Shown: positions 250-38,575 of the stretch, one piece after another | Numbering within the stretch: the stretch's first letter is position 1 | How the letters are laid out: the number at the start of each line of letters is the position of its first letter | NCBI GenBank assembly: GCA_009746045.1 | Contig: RPFO01000090.1 | Coordinates: 1,265,699-1,329,698 of the forward strand | Source of the DNA: Mesostigma viride | Taxonomy: Eukaryota; Streptophyta; Mesostigmatophyceae; Mesostigmatales; Mesostigmataceae | Length of the DNA stretch: 64,000 bases | Direction: 5' to 3' | Made by a program: the position numbers and the translations under genes | The notes under the pieces: generated by a model | Seen by the model: only the letters and a program-made list of their open reading frames with translations | What the model was told of the DNA's origin: nothing | The model's database searches: none

Positions 250-15769
<15,520 letters not shown>

Positions 15770-18903: not shown

Positions 18904-20249
18904 TCATGAGCTGCCGCAGCAGCTTGTATACTGAGGCCCCGACAGCATCGCTGGCTTGGTCAAGGCATCGGCAATATTCTCGCTCTCGGGGATCCACCGC
19001 CGCTCATCCAACACCGTGGCGGACTCGGCCAACACAAGGTAATCTAGTTTGGTGGTGGAGGCGAGCGGGTTATTCAGAAACTCCATTATTGACTTGCTAT
19101 CTGTGCACAGCCGCATGCGGAGCGACAGCGCCACGCGGGCCTTATCCGCAAGCCATTGCAAAAGTCTGACGCTGCATGCACATAACACGCATGGTCGACA
19201 GAGGAAATGAACGCGCGACACTCCGCGCGGTTGCTGTCTACCACTACCGGCTGATGGATGCGGCTATACCAGTCGACAAGAGTGGGCTGCCCATGCAGTG
19301 GGGCTATCAAGAAAAAAGGTGGCCGCCTCCCGCGCGCGCAGCTGCGTGATGGTACGCGACTCCAGGTTCGCGTCAGAGTAAATGGTCATTGCCACCGGGC
19401 GGGTGATATCAACCCCCCACACGCGCAGGCCCGGCATGATCGACGCCAAGACTTGCGTCCGAAGATGCTGCGCTCCCATGCCCGCAATTAAGCACGGCGT
19501 CGGGCGCAGGCGCGTATAGATGGACAGGTCGGGTCGCACCGTGCCCGCGAGCCACCCCAGGTCCCCAGCTGGCCGCGCAATTGCGGTCCCGCGGACGCAT
19601 CCAGCCGCTCAGGCAGCGATTGCGCGAGCTTGTCCGCGTATTCCTGCTTGCATGGCCGCCATGTCAATGCACCAGCCAACCGGTGTGCGGTGCAAAGTGT
19701 AGGTTAGGCCACAGAAAGGGACGGGGGTGTCGGGGTCCAGCCACAACGTGCGGCTAGTGGGCAAAAGCTTGGCCACAGCGGTTACGAACTGCCGGACCCA
19801 CGCCCGGGGTCCAATAAGCCGCCAGTCATCCCCCTGCCATAATTGCATGAACGCGGGCTCGTGTGGGTTGGGTGTGTGGATGTGAAAGAGGTTGCTATCG
19901 ATGCGAGAAAACACCGCCCCCATGCTAGCAAAGATGCGTTCAGCCGTCTTGCGAAAGATGATGGGGCTAGACTGCAGGCCCTCCACACCAAGGAGAAGCC
20001 GCAAGTACACACACCGCAGCTCCCCCTGCCATGCACACCAAAGGGACCTTGACCACATACTGTCACCGTGCCAAGCCACACTTCCTCGGCCACTGCATGC
20101 CGGGTCGCTATATGGAGAAAGTCCCGCTGAAAATCTGAGCAGGCCATGGCATAGTCCAAACCCCGATCCAACAGCCCCAAGAACACCGATGTTAACACCC
20201 GGCTAGTGGTCTGCGACAGCCCGGGCGTAAACAATTCCTCCTCCGACAA
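18904..20249 (-). pseudogene. Copia-type reverse transcriptase/RNase H remnant
   Basis: Read on the minus strand with several frame changes. Motifs in order: SRVLTSVFLGLLDRGLDYAM (start of the RT palm), GLQSSPIIFRKTAERIFASM with DSNLFHI (the Copia GLKQSPxxW...DPSLF region), MTIYSDANLESRT (RNase H DAD-like), LCTDSKSIMEFLNNP, and RRWIPESENIADALTKPA, the classic end of Copia RNase H. The YVDD core is not clear. This is a decayed pol domain of a Ty1/Copia retrotransposon lying downstream of the Gypsy unit. Confidence 0.68.
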
Positions 20250-20391
20250 CTGTCGCGTCTGCGTACCACAATCTCCGGCGCCACCATGGCGGCTGGCCAT
20301 GCTCAGCTTTGGTAAAACCCAAATGAGCTGAGCTGACGTGCCTGCCTTAACTGCATGCCTGGTGGGGTGGGCGAGGACCTGTCCCATGATT
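20250..20391. repeat. 142-bp direct repeat X (proximal copy)
   Basis: Starts CTGTCGCGTCTGCG and ends GTCCCATGATT. It matches 21558-21699 with about one mismatch. The two copies immediately flank the 1.17-kb repeat Y. Confidence 0.9.
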
Positions 20392-21556
20392 AAAGAAAGG
20401 AGGGCTCTCAGCCGAGGACAAGGAACTGTCCCTCGTGCCTGATGACCACCTTATTGCCTCCCCTGCTGTAGAATACTGCTTTCACAACACACACTTTGCA
20501 CAGTCTGATGATGAAGCCGCACATGCGGAATTTATTGAGAAAGTTAATACAATTACAACACGTTGATAGTCTCAATATCGATGCACTCCATGCTCACGAG
20601 CCCGCAGTTAGGCAGCGCTCCATGACATGCTACCGGCCTTGCTCCCAAGGAAAGGGAGAAACACGAAGGCCACTAACGAGAGACTCGAAGAGACTACACG
20701 CTACGTGAGAGTCCTCTTCGACTATGAACCAAACCATTCGTCATGCCACACGCATGACACACGCCACACTTGTCAGTCCAGCCAGGAATGCCCAAACTAT
20801 CTTGCTGCCTGAACCATGCAAATAGAAACTGCATTCCAGTTGCCGTCCTGGCTTTCTACCACACATGCCAACAAAAGCAGGAAGGCATCCCGACAAATCT
20901 AAATTGCTACCCTGTTGCCGATCTCATCTCCTAGAGGCTCCGGCATTTCTGTCCCTGGGAATGTCCGGCATTGAGTCACGACCACCAAGGTCGAAGCATA
21001 ATATCCTTCAAACAATCTGCACGCTCACACCTTGCGTGTGAGTGGCCCAGCAAACATTGCTTCTAATCTTTCCTTTCTAGAAGAAATCCCTTTGTAGGGC
21101 TGCCAGCGATTTCGCATTCATTCCAGCGATCTGGCTCCGCACCGCAAATTGTCCTTTTCCATTTTCTGTCCAGTCCTCATAACGTTGACCCGCTATTCTA
21201 CACCACAAAGACACCTGGCCTGTCAATAGCCTCGGCGCTGTTGAAGTCCAGCAGTCCAGCTCCAGCTCCAGCTCCAGCTCCAGCTCCAGCTCCAGCTGTC
21301 CACTAACTCGCGTATGATCCTCTCGACGCTGCGCACTTGTGCTGCCGTCCGCTCAAGTACGTCAGTGCTGCGCGCCCAGCCGTGCCTGGCCCGGCGCGCG
21401 CGCACGTGCACTTTCGTCCGCTCTTATGCTGCAAGTGCTAGTGTCCCCCCCCGGTCACTAGCCTTTGTCGAAAATGCGCAGAAAACAAATTCCTTGCGCA
21501 CGTCACCGGTCTTGTGCATAGTGGGCGCCCGGATGACATAGCTCGCGTCCGTGACA
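20391..21556 (-). repeat. Repeat Y, left copy: probable 3' LTR of the Gypsy unit
   Basis: About 1,166 bp matching 38523-40486 almost base for base, once the 770-bp LINE insertion and a roughly 10-bp extra segment are removed from the latter. The two copies flank the minus-strand Gypsy coding region in direct orientation. Read on the minus strand it begins TGTCACGG, with the TG expected of an LTR, but it ends CTTTCTTTA rather than CA. It contains a short (CCAGCT)n tract at 21257-21295. No simple target duplication flanks the unit, so the LTR role is likely but not proven. Confidence 0.6.
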
Positions 21557-21557
21557 G

Positions 21558-21699
21558 CTGTCGCGTCTGCGTACCACAATCTCCGGCGCCACCATGGCGG
21601 CTGGCCATGCTCAGCTTTGGTAAAACCCAAATGAGCTGAGCTGACGTGCCTGCCTTAACTGCATGCCCGGTGGGGTGGGCGAGGACCTGTCCCATGATT
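21558..21699. repeat. 142-bp direct repeat X (distal copy)
   Basis: Second copy of X, lying between the end of the Gypsy coding region and repeat Y. On the minus strand it follows the purine tract AGCGAGGGGGGA at 21700-21712, which looks like a polypurine tract. An alternative reading is therefore that the LTR starts here. Confidence 0.85.
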
Positions 21700-21725
21700 C
21701 CCCCCTCGCTGGCTCTCATGGCTCC

Positions 21726-22556
21726 TCACATGGCCAGCGACCGTGCCAACACCACAGCAGCTAAGGAAATGGTGACGCTACTGGTTGCGAAACGGGCAGC
21801 GACACAAACTGGGCAAAACCACTGGCCCGCTGGCACGGTGGTGAGCGCTGGCTGCAAGCAGTGCATGTGCCACCCACAATTACAGTGATCACACAGCAAC
21901 ATGGTATCCCCCTGGTCTACGCGATGGCAAACCTGACACTGTGCGTCCTTGACCCGCCTGGCCGTGTGCGGGGCGAGGTCAGGCAATAAGTTGGGCAACG
22001 AACACGGACTGAGGTTGCTTACGTTATCGGTGGTGCGACTGCCGTCGACGCCCTCCAAAATGGCGACCCCAGATGGCTTGATGGCGACGATCCGCAAGAT
22101 GGTCGGCCCCGCAGTCACGTCAAGAGTGTCGGTCAGCTGCGTGCGGAGAAATACGAACTGCCCCGGACGAAAATGCAGCTGACGGGCCATGTAAGCGCCC
22201 CCCCGGCGCTGAGCGTAGCGCAGGGTATCTCGGTGCTGGGCGATGAACAAGTTGTTCATGGCGATGGGCATAACCTTGCGGAAAGTAGCCGCCCGTGCGG
22301 TCACCTCAGCCAGAAACTGACTGGCGTTGTCAAACGCCATAGGGGTGGGGTGTGCACTCTGCGCCTCCGTGGGGAGCAAGGGTGCGCGCCCAAACAACAG
22401 GAAATACGGGGAGAAACAGGCGAGCGACTCCTGGGGTGACATTCGGTAACCCATGGCTATCCACGCCAGTTCACGATCCCACATAGTGAATGATGCTGAC
22501 TGCAGGCTCCACTTGCGCAAAGCCTGCTTGACAGTCTGCACCAATCTCTCAGCCAA
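21726..22556 (-). CDS. pol: Gypsy integrase C-terminus with PHD finger
   Basis: About 276 codons. It begins in NGLAERLVQTVKQALRKW with the catalytic Glu, and continues through the integrase C-terminal beta-domain (HFRPGQFVFLR, AGPTILRIVAI). Residues 207-251 are a perfect C4HC3 PHD finger: C207, C210, C222, C225, H230, C233, C248, C251. PHD fingers bind histone H3 tails, which would guide insertion to particular chromatin, like the chromodomain of other Gypsy elements. The stop at 21726 is followed by a purine tract and repeat X. Confidence 0.88.
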   Translation of the reverse strand: MAERLVQTVKQALRKWSLQSASFTMWDRELAWIAMGYRMSPQESLACFSPYFLLFGRAPLLPTEAQSAHPTPMAFDNASQFLAEVTARAATFRKVMPIAMNNLFIAQHRDTLRYAQRRGGAYMARQLHFRPGQFVFLRTQLTDTLDVTAGPTILRIVAIKPSGVAILEGVDGSRTTDNVSNLSPCSLPNLLPDLAPHTARRVKDAQCQVCHRVDQGDTMLLCDHCNCGWHMHCLQPALTTVPAGQWFCPVCVAARFATSSVTISLAAVVLARSLAM

Positions 22557-23200
22557 ACCATTGGCCTGAGGATGCTCCGAGAAGTGCGACGGTGATCAAT
22601 GAGACATGCATCCAACAATTCCTGAAATTCCCCCGAAACTCCCCGCCCTGGTCGGTGACCACCTCCGCGGGGGCGCCAAACCTGGCGATGATGTCGGCGA
22701 AGTGCTTGGCGGTGGTGGCGGCCTGCTTGTCAGCAATGGGGATGAGCTCGACCCACTTGCTAAAACTTTCGACACACACCATGACATACTTGTGGCCATC
22801 TGCACTTTCATCAAAGGGCCCACACAGGTCTACGTGCCAGCGGTAGAAGAGCCCTCTGATGGGTAGGCTCATCAATTCTTTCGCATCGTGGTCCACATTG
22901 AACCGGGCCTTCACCCGGGCACACTGCGCGCAGCGAGCGACGACCTGCGCGACTGTGGCACGCATGCCGTTCCACCAATAAGAGGCGCGCACTAGCGCCA
23001 AAGTGCGGTTACCACCCAGGTGGCCATACCGCTCATGGGCTTGCTGGACGATGGCGACCCGCTTGTGAGGCGGCGGCACCACCACTTTGCGCTTGCCGAT
23101 CATTTTGTGGAGGACCCCGGCATCCCACGAGTAGGTGACCGCCCTATGTTGCACCCTATTCAACTCAGCGTCACGCTGGGCTGAGGACCAATCAACCGGG
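22549..23200 (-). pseudogene. pol: Gypsy integrase, zinc-binding and catalytic core
   Basis: HHCC zinc module (AHERYGHLGGNRT, then ARCAQCARVKARF), followed by the DDE core: first Asp in YRWHVDLCGPFDES, second Asp in VVTDQGGEFRG. The third acidic residue is in the next segment (NGLAERLVQ). Between them the frame changes at least twice (22.55-22.65 kb), and the frame also changes from RNase H at about 23.19 kb. It inserts the cDNA in the family; this copy is not intact as read. Confidence 0.82.
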
Positions 23201-26200
23201 GTGGGGTGAGAGCTATCCCTTGGACCTGCTCCAACACACGCCCATCGAGCCACACATCACCCATGTTGCATTCCACTGTGAGATGGCCAACCAACACCAC
23301 CTGGAGTGCTAGGTATCGTGCCAAGGTATTGTCAATGTCAAAGGACGGAGAATTACCTTCCTCCAACGCGAGGAGGCCAGCGGCAGGGGTGAAGGGAGAA
23401 GGGTGAACTGCATTGCAGCTTGCCGCAAAGTCTGCGACTGTATACTCGACTGCGCGCCAGTCTGCCTCGGCGTCGGCGTCAGCGAAGCCTGCAGCATTAA
23501 CAAAAACCACAGACCCAGGCGAGCTCTCGGCCCCTAGGGCCCGCGCACCAGTGTTGTCAACAGTGGTTGGTAGAGCATACCTGGACAGGACGTCCGCGTT
23601 GGAGTGATCCACACCTGGCCGATGGACGATTGTCAGGTGGTACTCCTGAATGATCATTGCCCACCGGGCCAGCTTACCCGTGAGTTTGTCGCTGGTCATC
23701 AACCACAATAAGGGCTGGTGATCAGTGACAAGTGTGAACACCCGCCCAAAGAGATATGGCCTGAAGTGCTTGATGGCCCACACAACGGCTAACGCTTCCC
23801 CCTCGTAGGAAGAGTACCGACTCTCGGCAGAGTTGTTACTCCGACTAGCGTACGCGATAACATGCTCGCGCCCCGCATCGTCCTTTTGTGCTAGCACAGC
23901 CCCTAGGCCTACCTTGGACCAATCGGTGTAAAGAATGAAGGGCAGAGCATAGTCGGGGGCGCGTAGGATAGGAGCGGCAGTCAGTTCCTGTTTGATGGTA
24001 TCGATGGCTCGCTGCTGAGCCGGACCCCACGCCCAGACATTGCCCTTCTTCAACAACTCAGTCAGGGGTTTGACTTTGGTGCTGAAATTCTGAATATATC
24101 CTCGATAATAGCCAGCTAGCCCGAGATACGCGCGCACCCCCGAGATGTCGATGGGCACTGCGGCGTTGCTGATGGCTTCCACTTTGGCTGCCTCAGGGGT
24201 CCGGCCACCTGGTACAATCTGATGACCAAGAAACCCTATGGTCTGTTGGGCGAACTTGCACTTTTCAGGGTGCAGCCGCAGGTTGGCCTTATCTAGGGCG
24301 ATCCGAACCTGATCGAGGTGAGCTAAGTGCTGGTCAAATGTCTCGCTAAAGACAATGACATCGTCTATGTAGCAGGCTGCAAATGGCAACCCTGCCAGCA
24401 CCTGGTCCATGGCACGTTGGAACACCGCACTAGCGTTGCGATGTCCGAATGGCATGCGAACCCACTCGTACAGACGGGTCCCACCCCAAAAGGCCAGCTT
24501 GCGCTGATCTGCCTCTACGACCTTGATCTGATGGAAGCCGCTACGCAAATCTAGCGACGACACATACTTGACCTGGGGAGATATTTTATCCAAAACATCA
24601 TCGACCCGAGGCATGGGGTACCTATCAACAGGAGTGTGCGCGTTCAGCTGACGCAGGTCAGTGGCCATGCGCATACCTGTCCACTCGCCTGTGATGGTAT
24701 CCTTCTTGGGTGCGACCACCGTGGCAGCTGCATAACTGGAGGATGAAGCGCGGATGATCCCAGCTGCCTCTAGCTCTCGACAGTTAGCATCTACGAATTC
24801 CAGCTCAGCCAAGCTCAGCCTATGCTGCCGCCTGAATAAGGGCTGATCCGTATCTAGTGGGACCCCCATGCAGCCCCCGTTGTAGCACCCTAGTTCTTCA
24901 CTGCTGAAAGCGAAAACTGAGCGTGCAGAATGCAACCAGTGCTCCATAGCCTTGCGTTGCGTGGCGGTGAGGTGCTCACCTATGGCCCATATGTGAGAGG
25001 CAGCAGGATCTGCGACTGCGGCACTCCTACTGTCGAGACAAGGCCCCCGGACAGCGGCATCGTGGAAAAGGGAAAATGCGGCTACACCGGGTGTGACGCT
25101 CACCTGCTGAATGGCACGGACTGCGCGACCGACCGATTGCTGCAGGGTGGGCGCTCCAGCGAACACCGTGCTGGACAACAAGGACGTCATGAGGATAACG
25201 CTCCATAGTTGAAGCAGCCGCGATCTCCATGGCGACCCAGTGCCGCCGGACGCTGTTGGCCGGACACCAGCCGCGTGGGCACTGACAGGCGGTGGCGGTG
25301 TGGGGATATCTCCCCCACCCTGGCGCACTTGCATTGCGGCCCGCAGAACATACCCAACCTGGAAGGCTGACATGGCTTGCCCAACGAGAGACCACCTAGT
25401 GGCCTCTAAAACCCCCTCAGCGGCGGACGCCCCCACATGGAACCCCATGCTCACCTCCCGAAACTCAGCGGGCGGCTGCACCAACAAACCCGTACCGGTG
25501 TCCCATACCAAACCCTTGCCCCGGTCCCTGTAGGCCGATGACCCCTGGTAACTAACCAAGGTGGGAAGAGCGCACATAGGCTTACCTACGTGATTGACGG
25601 GCGCGTAAGGGTGCCGATCGGCGACGTCTACCCGCTGCGTGACCAAATGTGGTGGCAGCGCCACCTCCGCGGGCATGCCGTCGTGCTGTCGTGTGATCGC
25701 ATCTACCACTGCCTGGATGGTGGTGGTGAGTGCAAGGTTGGTCCAGAATGCGCGGTACCTGTGGGTGAGCCCGCCCAATCCTGCATTGTCGCACGTGACT
25801 GGTGCCCCTAAGATGTCCACGATCTGGGCCCAGTCCTTCCTCACTACCTCGTGAGGGCTGTCGTCGGCCACCACGTTCTCAAAAAGATACGCTAGTGGCT
25901 GGTCCTGCAGCTGCTGCAAGAGTCCAACGACTCGAAGCAGATCCCAAAACAACCCGCTCCTAGGATCCGCAAGCCCGCGTCCTACGCCGGCCTGACTCAA
26001 CCCTTGACATTCCCAGCCCGCGAGGACGAGGTCTATCCTCTTGTGCCGCCTCAAAAGGCCTCGCACATGAACCTCCCCAATGGCACGGATATCCTGAGGG
26101 CACTCCCCAAAGGGATCTGTCCACGCAGACGGAGGAAACTGAGATGGATACAGGGCAGACAGCTGGGCACAGTGATGCCTATACACTGCCCGAGCGGTAG

Positions 26201-26840
26201 GAGACGGCTCTACGGCGATCAACGTGTGGCACGTACCGCCTGCAGCGAGAAAGCCAGCCAGCCCCCCTCCCATCCCAGCAAACAATTCTAGCAATACAAC
26301 CCCTTCGGACAAGACCCGCGACTCTGCCACAACATCGGCACAGAAGTTACCTTCGGTTGTCGCGACAGCCACTTGTGACTGCGATTGCCGCGGGAGATGA
26401 GAGAGTTGTTGCTGCCGCACCGCGTTGGTGACGTGCTGACGCAAAAGGGCCTGCCGCGCTTGCGGCTGCTGTCGCGCCGCCCACGTGCTGTGCAATGAGG
26501 CCCGTCCCACCAGCGCTGTTGGGATGCACGGCCGATGCTTATCACGCACAGCCCCCCCAGCTGCCGTGACCTCCCCCATCCGTACCTCCACCACCGCGTC
26601 GTGCGAGCCAGCCTCGACCCGGTTGACCGTCGAGACACGCACTGCCCCAGTGTCCGAGCTGTAGCAGCTCACCGGGATGCTTGCTTGGCGCATGGCGTCA
26701 CCGTCTCTGTCAACGATGTACACCGCGCGACCTTCCCACATGCGTACCTCGAGCCGCATGGGAAACATGACCTCCATGCCGACCAGCACGTCATACGATG
26801 ACTGCTCGGTCACAAGGGCATTCACAGGGATGCAGGCCAT
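23160..26840 (-). CDS. pol: Gypsy pol: protease end, C5 methyltransferase, RT, RNase H
   Basis: 1,226 codons without a stop. Residues 1-45 finish the protease (DVLVGMEV). Residues 183-503 form a cytosine-C5 methyltransferase: motif I LELFAGMGGGLAGF, motif IV-like GWECQGLSQAG with Cys278, motif VI FENV, a motif VIII-like HRYRAFW, and a motif X-like VGQAMSAFQVGYVL. Residues 542-562 are hydrophobic. Residues 650-880 are the RT (APKKD, FHQIKV, MPFGHRNASAVFQ, YIDDVIVFSETF) with intact YIDD. Residues 965-1090 are RNase H (YTDWSK, YEGEALAVVWA, VTDHQPLLWL, VDHSNADVLSR). MTase, RT and RNase H lie in one frame, so they would be made as one polyprotein. Confidence 0.9.
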   Translation of the reverse strand: MACIPVNALVTEQSSYDVLVGMEVMFPMRLEVRMWEGRAVYIVDRDGDAMRQASIPVSCYSSDTGAVRVSTVNRVEAGSHDAVVEVRMGEVTAAGGAVRDKHRPCIPTALVGRASLHSTWAARQQPQARQALLRQHVTNAVRQQQLSHLPRQSQSQVAVATTEGNFCADVVAESRVLSEGVVLLELFAGMGGGLAGFLAAGGTCHTLIAVEPSPTARAVYRHHCAQLSALYPSQFPPSAWTDPFGECPQDIRAIGEVHVRGLLRRHKRIDLVLAGWECQGLSQAGVGRGLADPRSGLFWDLLRVVGLLQQLQDQPLAYLFENVVADDSPHEVVRKDWAQIVDILGAPVTCDNAGLGGLTHRYRAFWTNLALTTTIQAVVDAITRQHDGMPAEVALPPHLVTQRVDVADRHPYAPVNHVGKPMCALPTLVSYQGSSAYRDRGKGLVWDTGTGLLVQPPAEFREVSMGFHVGASAAEGVLEATRWSLVGQAMSAFQVGYVLRAAMQVRQGGGDIPTPPPPVSAHAAGVRPTASGGTGSPWRSRLLQLWSVILMTSLLSSTVFAGAPTLQQSVGRAVRAIQQVSVTPGVAAFSLFHDAAVRGPCLDSRSAAVADPAASHIWAIGEHLTATQRKAMEHWLHSARSVFAFSSEELGCYNGGCMGVPLDTDQPLFRRQHRLSLAELEFVDANCRELEAAGIIRASSSSYAAATVVAPKKDTITGEWTGMRMATDLRQLNAHTPVDRYPMPRVDDVLDKISPQVKYVSSLDLRSGFHQIKVVEADQRKLAFWGGTRLYEWVRMPFGHRNASAVFQRAMDQVLAGLPFAACYIDDVIVFSETFDQHLAHLDQVRIALDKANLRLHPEKCKFAQQTIGFLGHQIVPGGRTPEAAKVEAISNAAVPIDISGVRAYLGLAGYYRGYIQNFSTKVKPLTELLKKGNVWAWGPAQQRAIDTIKQELTAAPILRAPDYALPFILYTDWSKVGLGAVLAQKDDAGREHVIAYASRSNNSAESRYSSYEGEALAVVWAIKHFRPYLFGRVFTLVTDHQPLLWLMTSDKLTGKLARWAMIIQEYHLTIVHRPGVDHSNADVLSRYALPTTVDNTGARALGAESSPGSVVFVNAAGFADADAEADWRAVEYTVADFAASCNAVHPSPFTPAAGLLALEEGNSPSFDIDNTLARYLALQVVLVGHLTVECNMGDVWLDGRVLEQVQGIALTPPRLIGPQPSVTLS
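25332..26294 (-). other. C5 cytosine methyltransferase domain inside Gypsy pol
   Basis: A domain of about 320 residues between protease and RT. It would transfer a methyl group from S-adenosylmethionine to DNA cytosine. Seen: the SAM-binding FAGMGGG, the catalytic Cys in ECQ (Pro of the usual PCQ replaced by Glu), ENV, R-x-R and a degenerate motif X. All core motifs are in order with normal spacing, so the domain could be active. It is probably used to mark element or host DNA; this role is inference. Confidence 0.88.
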
Positions 26841-27268
26841 ATGTCGGATGGCCTGAGCGGGTTGAGGATGACCATTACCTGGACCGCAGTCATGGCAAAG
26901 GGTTTAGCGGCAGGGCCCTGCCAGCCCGCCACGGACACATGACTGTCCCGCAGCCCGCCATTCTCCCTGGTTAGGTTGAGCAACTGGGCCAGCCGAGCAC
27001 TGATAACGAGTGGCTGGGCCCCGCTGTCCAGTTTCACGACCAATTCATGGTCAGTACTGTAGACCACGTTGCTCAGGGGCTCCCCGTGCCCCTGCGCCTG
27101 AAACGCCATTGCTGGCTCGCCATCCGGATATGAGGTGACAGTGGGTGCCCCAGGCACTACGCACGCCCGCTGCGCGTTGTCCAAGACACCATGAGCGACA
27201 TGACCCACGATTACCGAAGCCGATGCAGGGCGATGCCCGACAAATGTGGCTGTCTCAGCGTTGTGCAA
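26822..27268 (-). CDS. pol: Gypsy aspartic protease
   Basis: Retropepsin-like segment with the catalytic motif VVKLDSGAQPLVISARLAQL (D-S-G in place of D-T/S-G, a normal variant) at about 27.01-27.05 kb. Its second half (SYDVLVGMEVMFPMRLEV) is in the next frame, just downstream. The join requires restoring one base near 26.86 kb, between ILNP and AQAIRHMACIPV. It cleaves the polyprotein in the family. Confidence 0.75.
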   Translation of the reverse strand: MHNAETATFVGHRPASASVIVGHVAHGVLDNAQRACVVPGAPTVTSYPDGEPAMAFQAQGHGEPLSNVVYSTDHELVVKLDSGAQPLVISARLAQLLNLTRENGGLRDSHVSVAGWQGPAAKPFAMTAVQVMVILNPLRPSDIWPASL

Positions 27269-27289
27269 CACTAGGAACTCGGGAACCGT

Positions 27290-27625
27290 AAAAGTGGTAA
27301 AAGTGGTAAAAGTGGGTGGTAAAAAGTGGTAAAAAGTGGTAAAAAGTGGTAAAAAGTGGTAAAAAGTGGTAAAAAGTGGTAAAAAGTGGTAAAACGGTGG
27401 GAAAACGGTGGGAAAACGCTAGGAGAAAAGCAGGTGGTAAAATCATTTTACCACCTTTTACCACCCCTTTTACCACCAAAGTGGTAAAAAATACCACCAA
27501 GTGGTAAAAGCGAGGGTGGTAAAAACACGCCACAAAGTGGTAAAAGTGAGGGTGGTAAAAAGTGGTAAAAAGTGGTAAAAATGAGGGTGGTAAAAAAATA
27601 CCACAAAGTGGTAAAAATGACAGTG
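27290..27625 (+). repeat. CACTA left subterminal array
   Basis: Dozens of AAAAGTGGT/AAAAAGTGGT units, some inverted (TTTTACCACC). Its counterpart at 35570-35880 is mainly in opposite orientation. Such arrays are transposase-binding sites in CACTA elements. Confidence 0.85.
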
Positions 27626-28204
27626 ATAAAAAAGGGGAAAATGCAGATTTTGCCAGCATTACAACACAAGCACTGTTAAGAACAGCTTAACAGGCCATCA
27701 TTCCAAATGGTTTCTTTATTAGAAATAATAATACATCCCATTAACAGTTGTCTCTCTTGATTTACAATGAGGATTTAGCCCCACATTGGGCGTCTCATCG
27801 ATACGTTTACACCATTGTGAAATAACACAGGCCGCATCAAGCCCAGCCAATTAATTTACTTCTTCTTCAGGTGTCATCATGATCAATGATGCTTCTTTGC
27901 CTGAACAAAGCCACACAGTTGCCAGCACTCATGCTCTGGAGGCCTGCAGGCACACAGAGCACCACCATTGAAGAGGACACAAGGGCAGCAAGGCAGGGGG
28001 GGGGGGGCAGTCAGGCACGGCAGATAGTTGTTGCCCAGCAAAACATCCTATGCATGGTGAAATGGGTTATGCCTGTGGGTATGATGCATGACCTAGCATG
28101 AGAGTGATACATACATGAGTAACAAAAATATACGCACATGGCAATTGGGTGTGACAACACCACATCACTACATAGCTAAAACGTGCTTCAGAAAAAACAT
28201 TCCA

Positions 28205-30312
28205 CTAAATTACCGGATCAGGAGTCTGACTCTGGGACTCCTTTGCTTGCCGCTCCAGCTCAACTTTCCGCTGCGCTTTTGCCATCATGGCCTTGAGCGC
28301 GGCAAGCTCCAGTTCCGCCTCGGTGAGATCTGGCGCGGAGGGAGCATCGGCAGACGCCGTTGCGGCCGGAGAGCTAGAGGCAGGCGGGATCGCTGGCGCG
28401 GAGGGAGCACCGGCAGACTCCGTTGCGGTCGAAGAGCTAGAGGCAGGCGGGATCGCTGGCGCGGAGGGAGCACCGGCAGACGCCATTGCGGGCGAAGGGC
28501 TAGAGGCAGGCGGGATCGCTGGCGCGGAGGGAGCACCGGCAGACGCTGTTGCGGCCGGAGAGCTAGAGGCAGGCGGGATCGCTGGCGCGGAGGGAGCACC
28601 GGCAGACGCCGTTGCGGTCGAAGAGCTAGAGGCAGGCGGGATCGCTGGCGCGGAGGGAGCACCGGCAGACGCCTTCTCCTTGGGTGGCGCCCGCGCTCGC
28701 TTGGCCGGTACATACTCATCCGACACCTCCTCCTTCTCCTCTGCTGGCCCCCAACTCTCCTTCAATTTCGCACGTGCGCCTCGAAGGTCGTCGTCAGTGA
28801 CGTTGCCCAGAAGGACCCACGCATTCTCGTTGCCCTCGGCGTCACCGTAATGCATCGTGGCAAAGTCAACAAACAGCATTTGCGAGCCCCCATCACGCTC
28901 CACAAACCGCGTGCCGTAAGGGGCCTTGAGCTTCGGCTTCACCTCCACCACTTTGCCAGGCTCCCAAACATACGCAGCCGGCCGCGCCCCATCGCGCTCG
29001 TACTTGTACCTTTGTGCCACGAAGGCCCCGTGCAGTGCTTCTCCGAAACCACCAGGGCCCGGTCGCTCTTGAACCACCGCGGTTGGCAGTAAGGTGCTCA
29101 GATAGTGCGCAAGCCCCAAGTCCATGGGACCACTAGGAAGCTTTCGCTTTGCAGCCGGCTTCTTGCTGGCGGCCGGCTTCTTGCTGGCGGCCGGCTTGTT
29201 GCTGGCGGGCGGCTTGTTGACGGCGGGGCGCGACGTGATGGGCTCGAAGACATCTGGCTTGATGGCAGGCACACGAGCAGGCGGGAGACCATCCGGCATT
29301 GGCAGGTCGGCCAGCTTGGGCACCGTAGTGGGCGGCTCCACGGTGTTGTTGGGCACCGGAGGGGACGGCTGCACAGCGTTGCTGGGCACCGGAGGGGGCG
29401 GCATGACAGGCTGCGTGCCAACGGGAGGGGGCGGCGGTACAACCTTCTTGGCCACCGGAGGGGGCGGCATGACAGGCTGCTTGGGAACGGGAGGGGGCGG
29501 CGGTACAACCTTCTTGGCCACCGGAGGCGGCGGCCTCACATCCGATACCTCCACAGGTGCAGGCGCGTACCCTGCCACTTCCTGCTCTAACTCCTCCTCA
29601 AGGGCTTGGAGCCGAGCTCTGAGTCTCCGAATTTCATCTGCTCGGACGCCTGTGGCATGCTGCACAGGCTTGGCCTCCGGCTTGACCTCCGGCTTTACTT
29701 CCGGCTTTACTTCCGGCTTGACCTCCGGCTTGGCCGCCGGCTTGGCCGCCGGCTTTGCCGCCGGCTTGGCAGCAGGAGTTGTCTGCAAGCAGAGGGCGGG
29801 GCATGGAATAAGGACGTTAACATTCGGGAAGTCGGTTAGTAGCAGACCTGCGATGAAAGAAAAAACCAAGAAGCTTGCAGACTCCTGTAGCTAAAGATAG
29901 CGTTATTACCTTTGGCATGTTGGTCACGTCGCTTAGCGCTTTGGTATTTTCCTTCACGTCATCATCCTCGTCCTCGGCAACTCTGCCTCTTTTTTAAGCT
30001 GGAGTTGCTTAGCCACCGGCTCAGCTCCTTTTTTACGAATTCTTCAACACTTAGGGCTTTGGGTTTGGAGCCCTTGGGCTTCTGGGCGGTGAGCTCACCA
30101 GTCGTCGGGTCTACCACCCAGCTGGATGCCTCATACTTATCCAGCTCTGCACGGTTGTCGTCAGCCACACATGTTTCTAGAAAGTTTATGCAGCTCTTCT
30201 TTACCCGGTTAATGAGAGCATCCACCATGGCGCCATCCTGTTCCTTGAGGACATACCCCTCTACGAGGTATGCACGGCCAAAGGTCGTGATTTGCAGTCT
30301 TAAGGTCCGCAC
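28205..30312 (-). CDS. CACTA second gene, proline/alanine-rich protein
   Basis: Two exons on the minus strand: 30312-29910 (MRTLRLQITTFGRAYLVEGY..) and 29782-28205, separated by an intron 29783-29909 (GTAATA...GCAG). A 6-A run near 29.99 kb shifts the frame by one base within the first exon. Exon 2 has AAKP/EVKP repeats, a probable coiled coil (RRLRARLQALEEELEQEV), proline-rich linkers (PPPPVAKK), a folded middle (PAAYVWEPGKVVEVKPKLKA, SQMLFVDFATMHYGDAEGNE) and six 24-residue SAGAPSAPAIPPASSS repeats at the end. It may be the accessory TnpA-like protein of the element. The upstream open frame (PEEWERFDASEKRKSRNK at about 30.37 kb) may be another exon. Confidence 0.62.
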
Positions 30313-31263
30313 ATATTCCGAGGGAACGACGTTTTGTTTCGGCTTTTCCTCTTCTCGCTTGCATCAAATCGCTCCCACTCCTCAGGACTGCACACGTGAG
30401 CTGGTCGTAGCACTGCTACCCTTCTCGGCATTTACAACGTTCGGTCGCACACCACCATGCGACCAAGGCTGGCTAAGTCCGGAATCCCCCCGTTTTGCGA
30501 ACGGAGACGGTGCCAACGTATACATGACGCACTGCACCTGCCTCTGTCCGCCGTTGGATTCAGCAGATCGACGAACCTGGCAGCATCCCGCGCAAAAATT
30601 TTTTGAACGTCTTTCGCCAAAAGGCACCAACGGCAGCTACACAAACGGCCGGACCGCACGCCTCGCGCGGGGCCCGCACGCCCCGCGCGGCTGCGTGCGG
30701 ATCGGCTAAACTCCGTACTGCTTGGTACAAGTACAGAGGCCTCAGGAGCTAAGGCTGTACCGTTTCAGTAGACTTCTACCAATGAGCCCGTGACTAACCA
30801 ACACTACCGTACACTGACCGTAATATCTACCATTTGAATGACTGAGAAAATGTCCGTTTGATCAAAAGGGATCGACGACATCGAAAGCGTTGGCGAGCAG
30901 ACTCAAACTTGCAACGGGTGACTTAGCGGCTATCACGGCGGCGGGTGGCACCAGAAAGATGGCGGTCCCCCACCCATGGATACCGGAATCGAGCCGAACA
31001 CTTACATCGACACACATGCTAGCTGGCCAAATTTCGTGATGTCTCCTTTCCCTTCCTCCACGGATACCTACATTGTCCAGTTTCATTGGTCATCCTGCAG
31101 GCTTCCTGAGTTTTATCGCCAAATTATGTTGGATGCGTTCCTGGAAATGTCGACTGAGCCGGACTTCATGGTCACGGTTGATTAGTGAGCTGCCAGTGGT
31201 CTCACTGGCGCAGACGCCCTAGCGTGGCTCGATTTGTGATCCCGATGGCGACTGGTTAGCCAC

Positions 31264-31305
31264 GGAGGGCCGGCATTGACCATCAACGGTCGATGCCGGC
31301 CCTCC
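31264..31305. other. Hairpin upstream of the CACTA transposase
   Basis: An 18-bp inverted repeat (GGAGGGCCGGCATTGACC and its near-perfect complement, one mismatch) around a 6-base loop, 15 bp before the tnp2 start codon. It could form a cruciform or an RNA hairpin in the 5' leader. Confidence 0.8.
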
Positions 31306-31320
31306 ATGTAGAGATTGTAA

Positions 31321-34300
31321 ATGCGTCAAGGACAGACAGTCGATGAATTCATGGCCGAGGACCCTGACGACGGGTCGGCCAGTGGAGAGGATGCAGCACG
31401 CCAGTTTGCTAGAAATTATGACGAAGCAGTGGCCAGAGTCAAGGACGATACGCCATTGTACCCGGGATCTGAGAGCAAGGCCTTGATGTTTACATTGCAA
31501 TTGCTGACGCTAATGGGGGAAAACTCATGCCCTCAGAGCTTTGCTGATGAGCTCTTCAAGCTGTTGGGAAACGTTCTCCCCGCGGGCAACACTCTGCCCG
31601 ACAGTATCTGGAAGGCACGGAAAGTGATCAAAGGCTTGGGCTTGGGGTACCGTGTGTACGATGCCTGCCCATGCGAGGGTTACTTGTACAAGGACAAGAT
31701 TACTAAGAGCTGCCCTCTTTGCAAGCTGTCGCGCTACGAGACGTACACTGACAGAAACGGTGACATCGTCAACTCGCGGAAAGCGCATCGCCAGGTTAGG
31801 CACTTCCCCCTGATGGATCGGATTAGGGCCTGGTTCCGAGTCCCGGAAATGGCGGAAGCCCTTCAGTACGCTGCGAAACATGAAAACAGGGAGCCAGACT
31901 CATCCACGCGCGTTGTGGACGGCTTGAAAGGCAGGTTTGCACTTGTTTCTACGCCTTCTGTTATGCAATGTGTGCCAAAGTATCAAGTTCGAGATTTTTC
32001 CTCTTGCGCTTATCTTTTGTTTGTACTGCTCTGATGGATACCTTTCTTTTTACGTCTGGTGTTTCTTGTGCATGGACCTGTTCGTGCAGACAGCCGTGCC
32101 ATCCAGCACATAAAGAACAACTGGGACTTTCGCAGCCAGCCGCGGAACACCATCTTCCTTCTGAATTTTGACGGAGTATGTCCAAGGTCTTTCATGGATA
32201 CCCACAGCAGCTGGCCCGCGTTTGTTTCCTGTGTCAACTTGCCCGAGTGGGTGATGGTGAATGGGCGGTTTTGCCCTATGGTGCTTCTTGTGGGCGCCAT
32301 GAAGGGGAAGGCACCCAAGAACATGACCATTTTTTTGGACTTGATCGCTGAGGACTTCCTGGTACTGTGGAAGGGGTATTACATTTGTGATGTGACGCTG
32401 GACGTGGCGGGTGTTTACACTACGACATTTGTGAGGTCCATTCTTGCTGGCATAATTCACGACTACCCGGCATACTCCAAGTCCCTGAACATTCCAGATG
32501 CAGGGTACTATCAATGCGTCCTACATGGTGATGAGTGGCGTGGGGTTTTTATCTCAAATGGCCGTATCGTTCTCCTTGGCAATGACCGCATGTTTCCCGA
32601 GGGTGACCCCCGCCGGCCGGCTCACGCTCCTGTTGTTCAGGAGATGGACCATGCTGGCTACCTGAAGTACTGTGCTACGCTAAAAAAGCAGCCCGAGCCG
32701 TTTCTCAAGTTACCGTACTGGGTTCACCTGAAGATCCGTCATTCTATTGACGAGTTCCATCTGTGTCCCAACAACTTCAAGCGGGTCATTCATTGCACAA
32801 GCGGTAATTGCTAAACATTTAATTGTATCATTTCATTGTGATTGTTGCATGCATTCATTGACTGTGGCCTATCTGTTCACATGGAAAGCTGATGTAATAT
32901 TGTTTTGTTTTTTTTTTCTGTTTGTACTATATGCAGGGAAGGCTATGGCGACCGGGTCACTTCGTGGCAGGCTGAAGGTCCTCGGTCTGAACCCGGAGCT
33001 GTGGCGGCCTGATGAAGACCCACCACCGGAGGGAGACCCACCACCGGAGGGAGACCACCAAAGTCCACCGAAGAAAGGCCGCAAGAAGAAGAGGGCGCCA
33101 GCACCGCGCCCCGGGTTCCAGCTGACGGCTGAGGAAAAGGCTGATATCAAGCGTAAGTGTGACATTGGGTTTTTATTTTTCCCGTAATTTGGAAATTTAA
33201 TATGTAGGACTGACTATGGTCTGTGTGATTTACATAGGACTGACTATTTTTTTCGGCTGTCGTGTTACTACTATGTGTTATTTTTTTGCGTGTGGTTGTA
33301 ATGCGCAGGTCTCGATGACATCATGGCGCATAGCCTACCCGACTACTTCACCGGCCGGATCAGTGGCTTGCTCTGCGATGCGAAGAGTACTGAAAAATCC
33401 AAGACGCGTGACAAGATCCTCTACTTTTGCAAGCAACTCCCGACCATCTTGCGTGGGCGGTTAGATGACGATGCACGGCAAGCATTTCTCCTTCAATCAG
33501 CGGCCTGGGACTTTGTGTTTTCTAGCGGCCCGGCGACTCAGCAGCAGTTGGATGACTGCGGCGAGATGTTTTTGCTTGCTGCTGTGGCGATGGAGCGTAT
33601 AGCGCCAGCGTCTGAGATGGCAAAATCTGTTCATATGATGGCCCACCTGGCCCAGCAAATCCCCTTGTTGGGTCGATGTGACACCCGCACCATGGCGTCG
33701 GGCGAGCGGATGATGGGGGCCATCACGAAAGCTAAGCTGTCCAACGTCAATGTGGAGTGCTCCATGGACGGAGCATATCGCAAGTCTGAGGCGCTGACCC
33801 ATCTGGCCTATCACATGGTGAAAACCGGGATGGTAAGTACACGCTAGTGACCGATTTTTTTTTTTAATGGATTTGTGTGCAGATTTAGTGTTATGTACGC
33901 GCTCCTTGTGGCACGGTCTTGTGCTGCATGCAGCTAATTTCTGTGCATATTTGTGTGCGCTGCTTGCAATGTCTTGTTTGCTTTCTTTTTTTTCTTTCAG
34001 CCAAAAGACCGCTACTACATCTGGGACGTCATCCACGCAGACCCGTCCAAGAAGGTCGAGTTGGGGGGGCGCAGCCGCAAGAATTTCTACACTTTCACCG
34101 CCGCGGAATCTGATGAAGTGGGCGCGATTTTGTTGGAGTATGCGCTGCCCAATGCGGAGTACAAAGATCCCGAAGTCAACGGCGATGAGGCCTACTGGTA
34201 AGACGCCGCTGTCCTATTATTGTAAGTTGCTATTCTTTGAGCTGATTTTCTTTCAGTATAGGGAACTTCATCTGATTTCCAAGGACTACTGCCGTTATTC

Positions 34301-35430
34301 TAATTTTTTTTTCTTGCATTGCTATCTTGCTTTGTATACGATGTGCATGCAGGCGGCCCTTGTGCAGCGACCTCTCATGGCTCAAAGACTGGATCGGACT
34401 CAACCAGCAGCCGCTGGTCCCGGAGCTTGTCCAGGCTGCAGCAGCCGGCGTGCAGCTCAAGGCTGAGGAGTATGATAGGGTGCACTTGTACGGTTTCAAT
34501 TACCGGACAAAAGAAGCTGACAGGAAGCAAGCATGGCGGACTGCAAACTGTGGTGTAGCCTACCATAAGGAGGGAAGCAGCACTCAGTACGGCTACCTGA
34601 CCCACATTCTCGTGGCAAAGCTGGTGCAGCCGGTGGGGCAGTGGACTCAACAGCTTGTGCTGAGAGTAGAGCTTTTCGATGCATCGGAGGTGGCTTACAT
34701 TCGGGATCAACGCTTGGTGTTGGTCCGCAGCGCCGAGGCACCACGCACGGCAAAGCTAGTGTGGCCAACATCTGTTAGCTCTGTTGGGTTTGTGCTGGAC
34801 CCACGGCATCAGCCCCAGCTTTCGGTCATTCACTGCAAGCTGCCCCGTCACCTGGCAACCGGGTGGGCTTTGGAGAACGAGTTTTTCCAAAGCACGGCGA
34901 CAAGGTGGCAGGAAGACATCAGGTACTTCCCACCTGAGCCGCCCGCTGAACGGCCGCCCGCTGAACCGCCGCCCGCTGATCCGTCGCCCGCGCCATCAAG
35001 CACGGCGGCACGACCTTCACGCGCAGCCCCGCCGCGCAAGAAAAAGAAGCCGCCCGATGAACGGCAGCCCGCGCCGGCAACCACGGCGGCAGGACCTTCA
35101 CGCGCAGCCCCGCCTCGCAAGAAAAAGAAGCCGCCCGCTGAACGGCAGCCCGCGCCGGCAACCACGGCGGCAGAACCCTCACGCGCAGCCCCGCCTCGCA
35201 AGAGAAAGAAGAAATCTGAGGCTTTGGCGCCTGCATCACACAAGGGGAAGGAGCCCATGCCCCCGTTGCGCACAAGTGCACGCGCGCGCACGGTCAGGGA
35301 CTATAGAGAACAAACCCTAGCAACGAGGGGAATGACAGTGATTTTAACGGTAGTGATGCCAAGGATGATTCTGATTGATGCTGCTGCGCCAGCATTTTGC
35401 GGCCTCATTAGATGCTGCTCACAAGTGTAA
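31321..35430 (+). CDS. CACTA transposase (tnp2 type), six exons
   Basis: Exons 31321-31934, 32094-32806, 32937-33152, 33309-33832, 34001-34197, 34353-35430; all junctions GT-AG and in phase, giving about 1,110 residues. N-terminal LPDSIWKARKVIKGLGLGY, CPCEGYLYKDK.TKSCPLCKL and RHFPLMDRIRAWFR match the plant tnp2 family (LPxSxYxAKKxLxxLGL, CPxC, YFPLxPRLQRLF). Exon 2 has SSWPAFVSCVNLPEWVMVNG and DFPAYS. Exon 4 has HMMAHLAQQIPLLGRCDTRT and MASGERMMGAITK (the HLxxE..GP...ERxxG pattern). The last exon resembles DUF4216 and ends with three 26-residue repeats containing SRAAPPRKKKKPP, which would act as nuclear localisation signals. It cuts and joins CACTA ends. No stop or frameshift is seen. Confidence 0.85.
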
Positions 35431-35569
35431 TCATGCCGATATTATGTTGAATAAAGATGCATCATTCATTGTTTGGGCCTAAACTGACTTGTTGTCGGTT
35501 CAGCCCTTGTGTTTTTTACCACTTTTGTGCTCGTCGTGGTGTTCTTTTTACCACTTCAGCCACTTTTTA

Positions 35570-35879
35570 TCACTTTTTACCACTTTTACTGCTTTTTACT
35601 GCTTTTTACTGCTTTTTACTGCTTTTTACTGCTTTTTACCACCATTTTCCACCTTTTACCACTTTTACCACCTCCGTTAGGTGGTAAAAGTGGTAAAAGG
35701 TGGTATTTTTTACTGCTTTTTACTGCTTTTTACTGCTTTTTACTGCTTTTTACTGCTTTTTACTGCTTTTTACGGCTTTTTACGGCTTTTTACGGCTTTT
35801 TACTCCTTGTGGGTGGTAAAAAGTGGTAAAAAGTGATAAAAAGTGATAAAAAGTGATAAAAGTGGTATTTTTTACCACC
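35570..35879 (-). repeat. CACTA right subterminal array
   Basis: Runs of TTTTTACTGC, TTTTTACGGC and TTTTACCACT, ending with AAAAAGTGATAAAAAGTGAT just inside the right end. Two diverged unit types distinguish it from the left array. Confidence 0.85.
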
Positions 35880-35896
35880 CCCGAGTTCCTAGTGAA

Positions 35897-36420
35897 CCTA
35901 CGGGCGTCCATTGTGTCAGCGTACCGCTGTACCTCTGACGCATGCGACCCGAGCACCTCCACGGCTCGCTGACCGAACCACTCGACCACTTGCCGGGGAG
36001 TGTATGCAGGCGTGTCCACGACCGACGGCATAGGGTATAATGGCAACAACCTGCGCCGCTGCTCTGCCCCAGCAGGATTGTCGTGTTCCAGGGTGGAGCC
36101 GGTCCGAGCGGGAGCCATGCGAAAGGACTGAGGCAGCTGCCCCACAGTCTCACTTGGCTGCCCCACCTGAAACGACGGCGGTGCACGTGCTTGCTTCCCT
36201 CGCGCGCCAACTGCGTGGATGTCCAACGCCATCACGTCGGCTGGCCGCCAGAAGTCCTCGTCCCTGTATTGAACCTGCGATCCCCCATCCTCCCTTTCAC
36301 GTCCCCCCGCCTCGCCCGTCGGCTGAATGATGACCACCCCCGCGTCCACCTTCTTGTCCTCCACGCGTCCGCAAAGTGCACCCCCGGCGCTGGGCACTGC
36401 CCCGCGCCAGATGGGTGCGG
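35897..36420 (-). CDS. pol: Gypsy pol N-terminal segment (upstream of CACTA insertion)
   Basis: Open frame overlapping the end of gag in the +1 frame, with RDEDFWRPADVMALDIHAVG and TYTPRQVVEWFGQRAVEVLG. It runs directly into the CACTA insertion after DTMDARR. Removing the insertion with one AA duplication continues in frame into the protease segment at 27,268 (RR|LHNAETA). No known domain; it is the linker before the protease. Confidence 0.6.
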
Positions 36421-38205
36421 ACCGTTGCCGGGTGTGACTTCTTACACGCCTTGGGACAATCACGTTTGATGTGCCCATCCTGACCGCACAGGAAGCAGCC
36501 CGATTTGCGCGCATCCGTCCTACCCGTCTGTGAGGACGTGCCCCCCCCAGCTCGCGTCGGCGGAGCGGCAGCGTCCTTGTTGCTGCCAGCGGCGTTACCC
36601 TGGGTTGCATCATGCGATGAGGCGTTGCGAGACCCCCCTTGGTTCCTGCTAGCACCGTGGCCGCCTTGCGGGCGCGCTTGTCTTGTGGCAGACGACTCAC
36701 CCGACTTGGCCTTGGTCAGCGCGTCGACCTTGGCCTGCAGCTCGGCCACCACCGTGCTTACCGAGATCCGGCCTTGCGCGTGTCGTCGCATCATGGCCCT
36801 GACCTCAATGCACAGTGACCGCAATCGCCACGGCTGGCCGTTGGGCGGCGTGGGCAGCTCCATCTCCTTGGAGCCTAGCGCTTGCAGCCATTTCTGACAC
36901 GCCAGCTTTTCGGACCAGTCCTCCACTTCGCCGGCGAACTCCATCATGAGGCGCTCGTAAGATTGCTCCGGGGTTTCACCCTCGGCTATCTTGAAACTGC
37001 GCCACTCACGCTCTGCCTTGATGGTCTCCACCGGGTATTCCTGGCGAAGGAGGCCCCACAGTTCCTCGGCAGGGTCGACACCATACATGATGTTGTCACA
37101 GTCGGGCTGGCCACGCCCGTCGAAGCCGAACCACACGTCCGTGTGACGCGTGTACAGCGAGACCTCTCTCCACTGCTCCACCAGCCTAGCCACTCGCCTC
37201 AGGGTAAGGCCGTGAAAGAAGAAATGCATGTTGTTCATCACAAACTCATGCATTACAGCGCCTTGCGTAGTCATGTATTGCAGATCAATCCATGACTTGT
37301 ACGCGTTGTAGGCCTGCGCCAGCGTGGCCAGATTGCCGGTTGTGGAGAACTTCTCGCGCATGTCCACCCGTGGTAGGGTGGGCATCTTCGCGCCTTCCGG
37401 TATGAGGCGCACCCTTTGCGGGTACTGCACCCCATCGGCATCCTCCGGCGGTCGCTGAGCTGCGCGTCCCTGCGCCAGCGTGCTTGGGCGTGCTGCCTCC
37501 CGTACTCGGAAAGCCAGCGGCGTGGTTATGTCCTCCATGGGCGGAATGCGCCCGATTGGCACACTTGACCACCGTGCAGTCGACCCGCCGGTCAGCGCCC
37601 CACCGCCTCGCCCAAACGGAATTGAGACCCCGCCTGGCAGCATGCGTCCTGGTGCACCCCTGCGTGGGTCCATCGCGCGCGCCAGCCCTGCCCCGTTCTC
37701 CTCGATCGTGCAATCCGTCTCGCGCTTGATCGAAAGGCAGGCGCCTGGGCGCCAGCGTATACTCGCCCCGTGGCTGACCATCCGCCTCACCAAGCAAGTC
37801 GTGCTGGGTTAGCGACCCAGCCAAAACCCCCGGTTCCATCGGAGCCCTTCCCGCCGCATTACCTGAGGTTGGCGGCTGGTCCCGCTCCCTCGGCTCCGCG
37901 GCAACACCACTTGGGCCCGGCATCGTTGCCTGCCCGTCCCATGGTGTGGACTGCAGATGACGACCCTCTACGGCCACCAATCTGTCGGTCACTTCCCGCA
38001 TCTGCAGCGCCAGTTGCTGCTGCAACTGAAGCGACTGTTGCTGCATCTGCGCTTGCATCTGCGCGAACAGCGCCACCATACTCAGCGGCGCTTCTTGGTC
38101 GCGACTCTCACCCACTGCGGGTACGGCGGGAGGAATCCCGCCATTCGACCCCGGAGCGGGCGTGTCGGCATCTGCTCTATTTGCATCCGCCATGGCTCGA
38201 GTCTG
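36297..38205 (-). pseudogene. gag: Gypsy gag (Q-rich coil, capsid-like region, zinc knuckle)
   Basis: Starts near MADANRADADTPAPG (38.19 kb). A glutamine-rich probable coiled coil (MQAQMQQQSLQLQQQLALQM) follows. A frame change of one base at about 37.77 kb separates it from the capsid-like part, which contains RVDMREKFSTTGNLATLAQA, WREVSLYTRHTDVWFGFDG and EGETPEQSYERLMMEFAGEV, the helix pattern of retrotransposon gag. A CX2CX4HX4C zinc knuckle (CFLCGQDGHIKRDC) at about 36.45-36.50 kb would bind RNA. The frame closes at 36297 while the pol frame is already open, offset +1. Confidence 0.78.
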
Positions 38206-38575
38206 CGCTCGCGTCAGTGGCATGCACCAGCTGACCGATGGGCAAAACAAGAACCAACAAGCCTAGGTTTCGCTGAGATCGAAGAAGCAACAACCAAAGG
38301 CTTTATAACAGGCGTCAAGGATAACGACTCGACTAGCCTGCCAGAAAAAGACAAGAGCCAGCAAATTCTGGCTAGTTCTATTTTCTTAAAATCTGTCTCA
38401 AGACACTTCCTTTACAAACTGTCAGCCAGGCCGTTCCCTGTACTGCTGATGGTTGATAAACACTAAAGCCAACGTCTTGGCTTCGAACAGAAGGAAGCAG
38501 ACTACCGGGTAGTCTCTTCGAGTAAAGAAAGGAGGGCTCTCAGCCGAGGACAAGGAACTGTCCCTCGTGCCTGAT

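Follow-up and report, generated by a model that had tools for sequence, protein, structure and literature searches.

A cytosine methyltransferase in the Pol of a Gypsy element

The stretch of Mesostigma viride DNA analysed here (the window; 64,000 nucleotides of contig RPFO01000090.1, positions 1,265,699 to 1,329,698) contains a Ty3/Gypsy-type retrotransposon with a C5-cytosine methyltransferase (MT) in its Pol region. Comparison with other copies places the element at 20251-40486, where it is split by an 8.6-kb insertion and two smaller ones. Its main open reading frame (ORF) holds MT, reverse transcriptase (RT) and RNase H, recognised by Pfam (PF00145, RVT_1 and RNase H), in a single frame of 1226 codons, as an earlier note on this DNA had proposed for a complete C5 enzyme. 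The PF00145 match covers ORF residues 184-323 (E 2.4e-10); an alignment of relatives and an AlphaFold model of 333 residues extend the domain to about residues 177-515 (window 25296-26312), a span that encloses the 25332-26294 first assigned to it. Motifs I, IV, VI, VIII and X are present and arranged in the order of DNMT3, which is the best match both by sequence profile and by fold. The single host DNMT retrieved (L075) is of a type other than DNMT3.

The MT lies after the protease, recognised by eye from a DSG motif, and before the RT, and a PHD-bearing integrase belongs to the same element (Pfam domains in frame 22556..21729); both placements agree with the earlier note. The domain order RVT_1, RT_RNaseH, Integrase_H2C2, rve is that of Ty3/Gypsy elements. 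The single polyprotein described in that note holds in part: MT, RT and RNase H do share a frame, but the protease motif, the integrase and the PHD finger of the window copy occupy three others. Since its integrase frames are interrupted, the window copy is probably not autonomous.

The MT domain is complete, integral to the element in the copies examined and kept by selection. The MT was searched against the host genome (440 Mb), where the best 113 of 531 first-look candidates were scored, giving at least 113 matching places. Among these, 22 belong to the subfamily of the window copy, F1 (21 at 96-100% identity, one at 88%), and 91 to a second subfamily, F2 (73%). An open frame of 2,074 codons surrounds 36 of the 91 F2 matches and runs uninterrupted from protease through PHD. 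At 30 MT-anchored loci an RT follows downstream in all 30, a protease tail precedes in 28, and MT and RT share one frame in 27. A search with RT-RNase H (87 scored of 3,787 candidates) reached 33 F1 matches (99-100%) and 54 F2 matches (84%) and no more distant Gypsy families; at 12 loci anchored on it, the MT is directly upstream in every case. Five copies occur in both sets, and the 42 loci represent 37 copies; full-length copies without the MT were sought among them and none was found.

Several copies are, or look, incomplete in other ways. Sixteen of the 33 F1 RT matches start at residue 3, 12 or 19, or end short, and looked truncated; most of these have open frames of 593 or 660 codons. 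The only one that is also MT-anchored (C887, at L015) has the MT and a frame change before the RT. L042 is a tandem unit with an internal deletion that reaches from late gag past the protease into the beginning of the MT. At L041/L042 an F2 element is followed head-to-tail by this second unit.

Selection on the domain in other copies, which the earlier note had proposed to check, is purifying. Between F1 and F2 the non-synonymous divergence (dN) of the MT is 0.21 with synonymous sites saturated; dN is 0.13 for RT, 0.07 for RNase H, 0.19 for the integrase core, 0.59 for the protease tail and 0.69 for the following linker. Within the 22 F1 copies, 58 distinct MT variants comprise 35 synonymous and 23 non-synonymous changes, giving a non-synonymous to synonymous ratio (N/S) of 0.66 against 2.65 expected without selection; these copies share ancestry and their variants are not fully independent. 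The corresponding ratio is 1.14 against 2.82 for RT, and 1.57 for each of two linkers against 2.5 and 2.6. A chance ORF, or the chance insertion into one copy that the earlier note had considered, is ruled out by the number of matching places, by the linkage of MT and RT at all loci of both sets and by this N/S ratio.

The two subfamilies differ unevenly. Repeat A is 95.6% and gag 97.9% identical between them in the aligned parts, while MT DNA is 70% identical. The shared parts were read at window 20391-21559 and 36471-38269 against L041. Since repeat A and gag are nearly identical while synonymous sites in pol are saturated, F1 or F2 looks recombinant. The integrase frame is interrupted in both F1 copies readable there (window and L040), and an F2 copy has one long frame; with repeat A and gag in common, F1 may therefore spread by means of F2 proteins. 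Some of the F1 frame changes could be assembly errors. The nearest protein matches are EukProt rows labelled Mesvir1 (Mesostigma viride), and one of them from the published M. viride gene models (P0004) is identical to an F2 copy at 719 of 725 residues.

Split repeats and anatomy of the window copy

The repeats are of the split type known from DIRS elements (A-coding-B-A-B) rather than a plain layout of two long terminal repeats (LTRs) around an internal region. The 5′ end is a 1.17-kb repeat A; past the PHD frame stands a purine-rich tract and then repeat B (141 bp), which occurs twice with another copy of A between the two (Table 1). A search of the host genome with repeat B (40 scored of 609 candidates) yielded 16 fetched loci representing 15 copies, L055 and L060 being one copy. 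The arrangement tract-B-A-B ending in GCGACA occurs in 14 of the 16 loci (13 of the 15 copies) with differing flanks, save that the two loci of the window copy share theirs; L061 and L063 are rearranged. The 5′ end was probed in four further copies, three of which have A1, and none was found at the predicted place in the fourth. All four copies in which both ends were found are bordered by 4-bp target duplications, namely GTTG (window), TTCT, AAAA and TGCT. Together with the element ends TGTC...GACA, these duplications are the marks of DDE integration, and a DDE integrase is present in place of the tyrosine recombinase of DIRS elements. The palindrome GACAGCTGTC at the joint between B1 and A2 corresponds to the 3′ end of the element joined to its 5′ end. 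No obvious tRNA primer site was seen by eye downstream of A1. The combination of DIRS-like repeats with 4-bp duplications poses a concrete puzzle as to how the cDNA is made and integrated.

Table 1. Features of the element and its surroundings in the window, listed from the element's 5′ end
Feature	Position	Strand	Basis or remark
5′ target-site duplication copy, 4 bp (GTTG)	40487..40490	.	sequence; like pattern in three other copies
Repeat A1, first part; element 5′ end TGTCACGG	39346..40486	minus	comparison of copies
Repeat A1, last part	38520..38575	minus	comparison of copies; beyond 770-bp insertion (38576-39345)
Leader and gag region	35892..38519	minus	comparison of copies; 64-bp insertion at 38270-38333
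Nested DNA transposon	27274..35891	plus	copy comparison, Pfam; splits the element, not part of it
Protease DSG-motif frame	26822..27271	minus	by eye
Main Pol ORF	26840..23160	minus	1226 codons; MT, RT and RNase H in one frame
DNMT3-like C5-cytosine methyltransferase	25296..26312	minus	Pfam, alignment of relatives, model; about residues 177-515 of the 1226-codon ORF
Hydrophobic stretch between MT and RT	25155..25225 (approximate)	minus	by eye
Reverse transcriptase RVT_1	24216..24710	minus	Pfam; residues 711-875
RNase H	23640..24029	minus	Pfam; reaches to residue 1067
Integrase, H2C2 zinc domain and first part of DDE core	22549..23253	minus	Pfam; frame broken at both ends
Integrase C-terminal part with PHD finger	21729..22556	minus	Pfam; PHD at about 21804-21938
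Purine-rich tract GCGAGGGGGG, putative polypurine tract	21700..21709	minus	sequence; adjoins B1
Repeat B1	21560..21699	minus	repeat comparison
Repeat A2	20392..21559	minus	repeat comparison; palindrome GACAGCTGTC straddles the B1/A2 joint
Repeat B2; element 3′ end ...GCGACA	20251..20391	minus	repeat comparison
3′ target-site duplication copy, 4 bp (GTTG)	20247..20250	.	sequence

Pfam gave no match to the protease of the window copy, nor to the F2 equivalent of the gag region. A hydrophobic, signal-like stretch between MT and RT is common to F1 (window) and F2 (L041) by eye. The 8.6-kb insertion is a CACTA-like DNA transposon; its ORFs match Transposase_21 (32059-32814) and resemble DUF4218 (33323-33847), the latter just under the cut-off. 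Its ends bear TTTTTACCAC-type repeats in inverted orientation. By eye, the ORFs at 19609-20387, just past B2, resemble a degenerate Copia-type RT. Elsewhere in the window, the spans 3732-5310 and 6392-8242 are two long tandem arrays, whose repeat periods are about 41 and 37 bases by the spacing of matches.

Relatives in other algae and the origin of the domain

A protein profile search with seven rows (7,995 candidates scored, E <= 0.001) returned at least 89 relatives. Besides Mesostigma, those with names are from Haematococcus lacustris (P0059, P0084) and from an EukProt entry labelled Chrzof1, which we take to be Chromochloris zofingiensis. In the 95 proteins gathered by three protein searches, the MT stands alone in 33 and has a neighbouring domain in 62. 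All of the latter show, whole or in part, the order RT-RNase H-MT-integrase-PHD, which is complete in 27. The order protease-MT-RT is that of Mesostigma F1 and F2. The protease also precedes the MT in pieces that lack an RT, by eye in P0002, P0004 and P0090 and through a weak Pfam match in P0007. P0084 was considered as another protease-MT element and rejected, its stretch after the MT resembling by eye the pre-integrase stretch of other relatives; we take it to be an RNase H-MT-integrase element with a deletion. The position before the RT is distinctive, as the earlier note held, but the site between RNase H and integrase is the one used in the 62 of these 95 proteins that have a detectable neighbour.

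A Pfam methylase label is carried in the search table by 17 of the 89 relatives; with so few, a survey by PF00145 such as that in PMC5890265 may miss them. P0053 lists both PF00385 and PHD. P0005 and P0009 have a further conserved, domain-like stretch past the PHD in their last ~120 residues, which has no Pfam name in P0005. No relative was confirmed in searches of collections of viral and prokaryotic contigs. MT ORFs of a different, Dcm-like type (GFPCQ) are near-identical on many host contigs (L001, L002 and others), and some are flanked by common small ORFs, possibly as part of another mobile or viral element.

The closest precedent is KnitGypsy-Dnmt3 of Klebsormidium nitens as described by de Mendoza et al. 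2018 (PMC5890265). It too comes from a streptophyte alga and has a non-permuted, Dnmt3-related MT in the Pol of an LTR Gypsy element, a DIRS-type repeat order (Fig. 4c legend) and a domain under purifying selection; the comparison is with this published description. The acquisition is read there as specific to the K. nitens lineage, whereas many relatives are found here, and the term PHD is absent from the main text of that paper while the Mesostigma element has a PHD finger. No row labelled K. nitens occurred among the matches of the protein searches (about 8,000 candidates scored each). SymbioDIRS-Dnmt3 of Symbiodinium, according to the same paper, also has a Dnmt3-like domain in Pol and the repeats A-coding-B-A-B; it encodes a tyrosine recombinase, in contrast to the DDE integrase, TGTC...GACA ends and 4-bp duplications of the Mesostigma element. 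PMC12344493 describes some DNMT3 members that lie inside retrotransposons, LTR Copia and DIRS among them, with earlier reports from streptophytes and dinoflagellates. The precedent in dinoflagellates and a charophyte given in the earlier note is real (PMC5890265), but its view of such elements as rare does not sit with at least 113 places and 89 relatives. The passages of the M. viride papers PMC6947507 and PMC7027972 contain no mention of an MT in a retrotransposon, and a literature search whose coverage excluded most subscription journals and bioRxiv found, among the papers listed, none on such elements in Mesostigma or chlorophytes, nor one on REM1 of Chlamydomonas, considered as a possible relative. 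The kind of element is known but rare, and the Mesostigma one looks like a branch of it that has drawn little notice.

Outside this kind, the catalytic domain of DNMT3A/DNMT3B is among the closest known systems to the Mesostigma MT. In chromoviruses, which are Gypsy elements, the C-terminus of the integrase carries a chromodomain. The Mesostigma element resembles them in having a chromatin-reader module at this place and differs in that the module is a PHD finger.

The origin of the domain is read most simply as a single capture, after which the MT changed place once within Pol. A tree of 78 rows comprised F1, F2 and 76 of the 95 proteins (19 short pieces were dropped; P0001, P0007 and P0084 were kept by name). 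Under midpoint rooting, Mesostigma, P0090 and P0007 lie on one side of a 99/92 branch. A second tree used 35 selected family rows with three distant outgroup rows. On it, the 30 family rows outside Mesostigma/P0090/P0007 group as one clade (98/90) nested within those five; several of the 30 have no known neighbour domain, and bootstrap values are unsettled in both trees. It is possible, though not the favoured history, that protease-MT-RT and RNase H-MT-integrase elements took up related DNMT3s separately. The two types do place the MT differently in Pol, and the ratio of MT to RT distance is higher between them (Mesostigma against the RNase H-MT-integrase type, median 1.33, range 1.05-1.95, 56 pairs) than within the RNase H-MT-integrase type (median 1.11, 346 pairs). 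However, 1.33 falls within the 5-95% range of the latter (0.93-1.43), and Mesostigma MTs evolve fast (F1-F2 ratio 2.18). MT and RT distances correlate within the RNase H-MT-integrase type (r 0.79; 28 proteins, 378 pairs). Separate capture is further opposed by Glu-Cys at motif IV in both types and by the nesting of the non-protease-first rows as one clade inside the protease-first rows, although a single clade of the five Mesostigma/P0090/P0007 rows is not rejected (p 0.355).

Possible roles of the methyltransferase

On balance the probable explanation, judged from sequence, is that of a Mesostigma Gypsy element whose integral DNMT3-like MT acts on the element itself. The MT would be made as part of Pol and packed into the particle, where it would place 5-methylcytosine (5mC), most likely in CG, on the double-stranded cDNA before or at integration. 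New copies would thus enter a CG-methylated genome already methylated, and the PHD finger of the integrase would help to choose the chromatin. The A-coding-B-A-B form, with its TGTC...GACA ends and 4-bp duplication, would result if an intermediate, either a circle or a tandem repeat, were cut open by the DDE integrase at the palindromic B/A joint, and F1 would be mobilised by F2 proteins. Of the separate parts, methylation of the element's own DNA is likely, and it is plausible, as the earlier note suggested, that the element both sets its own methylation marks and reads chromatin.

The M. viride genome is reported to carry 5mC, mostly in CG (PMC6947507). When 48 F1 loci were compared with the window copy (itself left out), C-to-T or G-to-A changes were found at 32 of 966 CpG sites and 54 of 3,134 other C/G sites (odds ratio 1.95, p 0.004, sites taken as independent), with no significant excess of transversions (p 0.50). 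Such an excess is what CG methylation of the copies would leave, whether the host or the element made it.

Several observations weigh against the MT as an active enzyme of the element. The excess of CpG transitions can stem from host enzymes. A depletion of CpG in the element was sought and none was found (observed/expected 0.81, surroundings 0.82), nor was there a strong mark of deamination. The frame changes within the MT in several of the 12 RT-anchored loci. The main doubt on activity is motif IV, where the window MT has Glu-Cys and lacks the Pro-Cys expected of the DNMT3 family; Glu precedes the catalytic Cys in 79 of 93 aligned rows, the window included, and Pro in 14. Finally, the retrotransposon enzyme of K. 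nitens showed no activity in yeast, a result that its authors call inconclusive (PMC5890265). The SymbioDIRS-Dnmt3 enzymes are reported in that paper to methylate CG in yeast.

Motif IV and the K. nitens result also speak for an unlikely alternative, in which the MT catalyses little or nothing and, like DNMT3L, serves in binding or as a structural part, holding DNA or chromatin in place for integration; the change from Pro to Glu would be the mark of this role. A dead scaffold would have no need of the catalytic residues that are retained (Cys in 93/93 aligned rows, motif VI Glu in 94/94, motif VIII Arg in 92/94 and 91/94), and Pro and Glu have switched at least seven times on the 78-row tree. 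It is rather improbable that host DNA or other copies are the main target of the MT and that it persists because it damps transposition or silences competitors, to the benefit of the host and so indirectly of the element. Such a role is raised for retrotransposon DNMTs in PMC5890265 and would suit a high-copy family in a CG-methylated host (PMC6947507), but the present data hold no sign of an effect in trans, and the simplest account of selection on a domain within Pol is that the element uses it in its own cycle. An artefact (chance insertion of an MT in one copy, or misassembly) has next to no probability: nested insertions and frame changes do interrupt the window copy, but the same junctions occur in copies on other contigs and in the published gene models (P0004).

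More tentatively, self-methylation by the Mesostigma element may belong to a wider pattern, in which the retrotransposons of green algae would include a large class, for the most part without annotation, that has made cytosine methylation a core function of replication. Its Trp-Glu-Cys loop would have been kept for long and its MT moved once in Pol, from before the RT to between RNase H and integrase; self-methylation, circle-type replication through a palindromic joint opened by the DDE integrase, and PHD-guided integration would form one life cycle. The spread over Mesostigma, Haematococcus lacustris, Chrzof1 and many contigs, the two positions in Pol and the altered catalytic motif extend a feature previously described from two lineages. 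Retroelements are usually the victims of DNA methylation, and here a family retains an enzyme of the kind that makes the mark. Such an MT-bearing family offers material to test whether self-methylation benefits a transposon.

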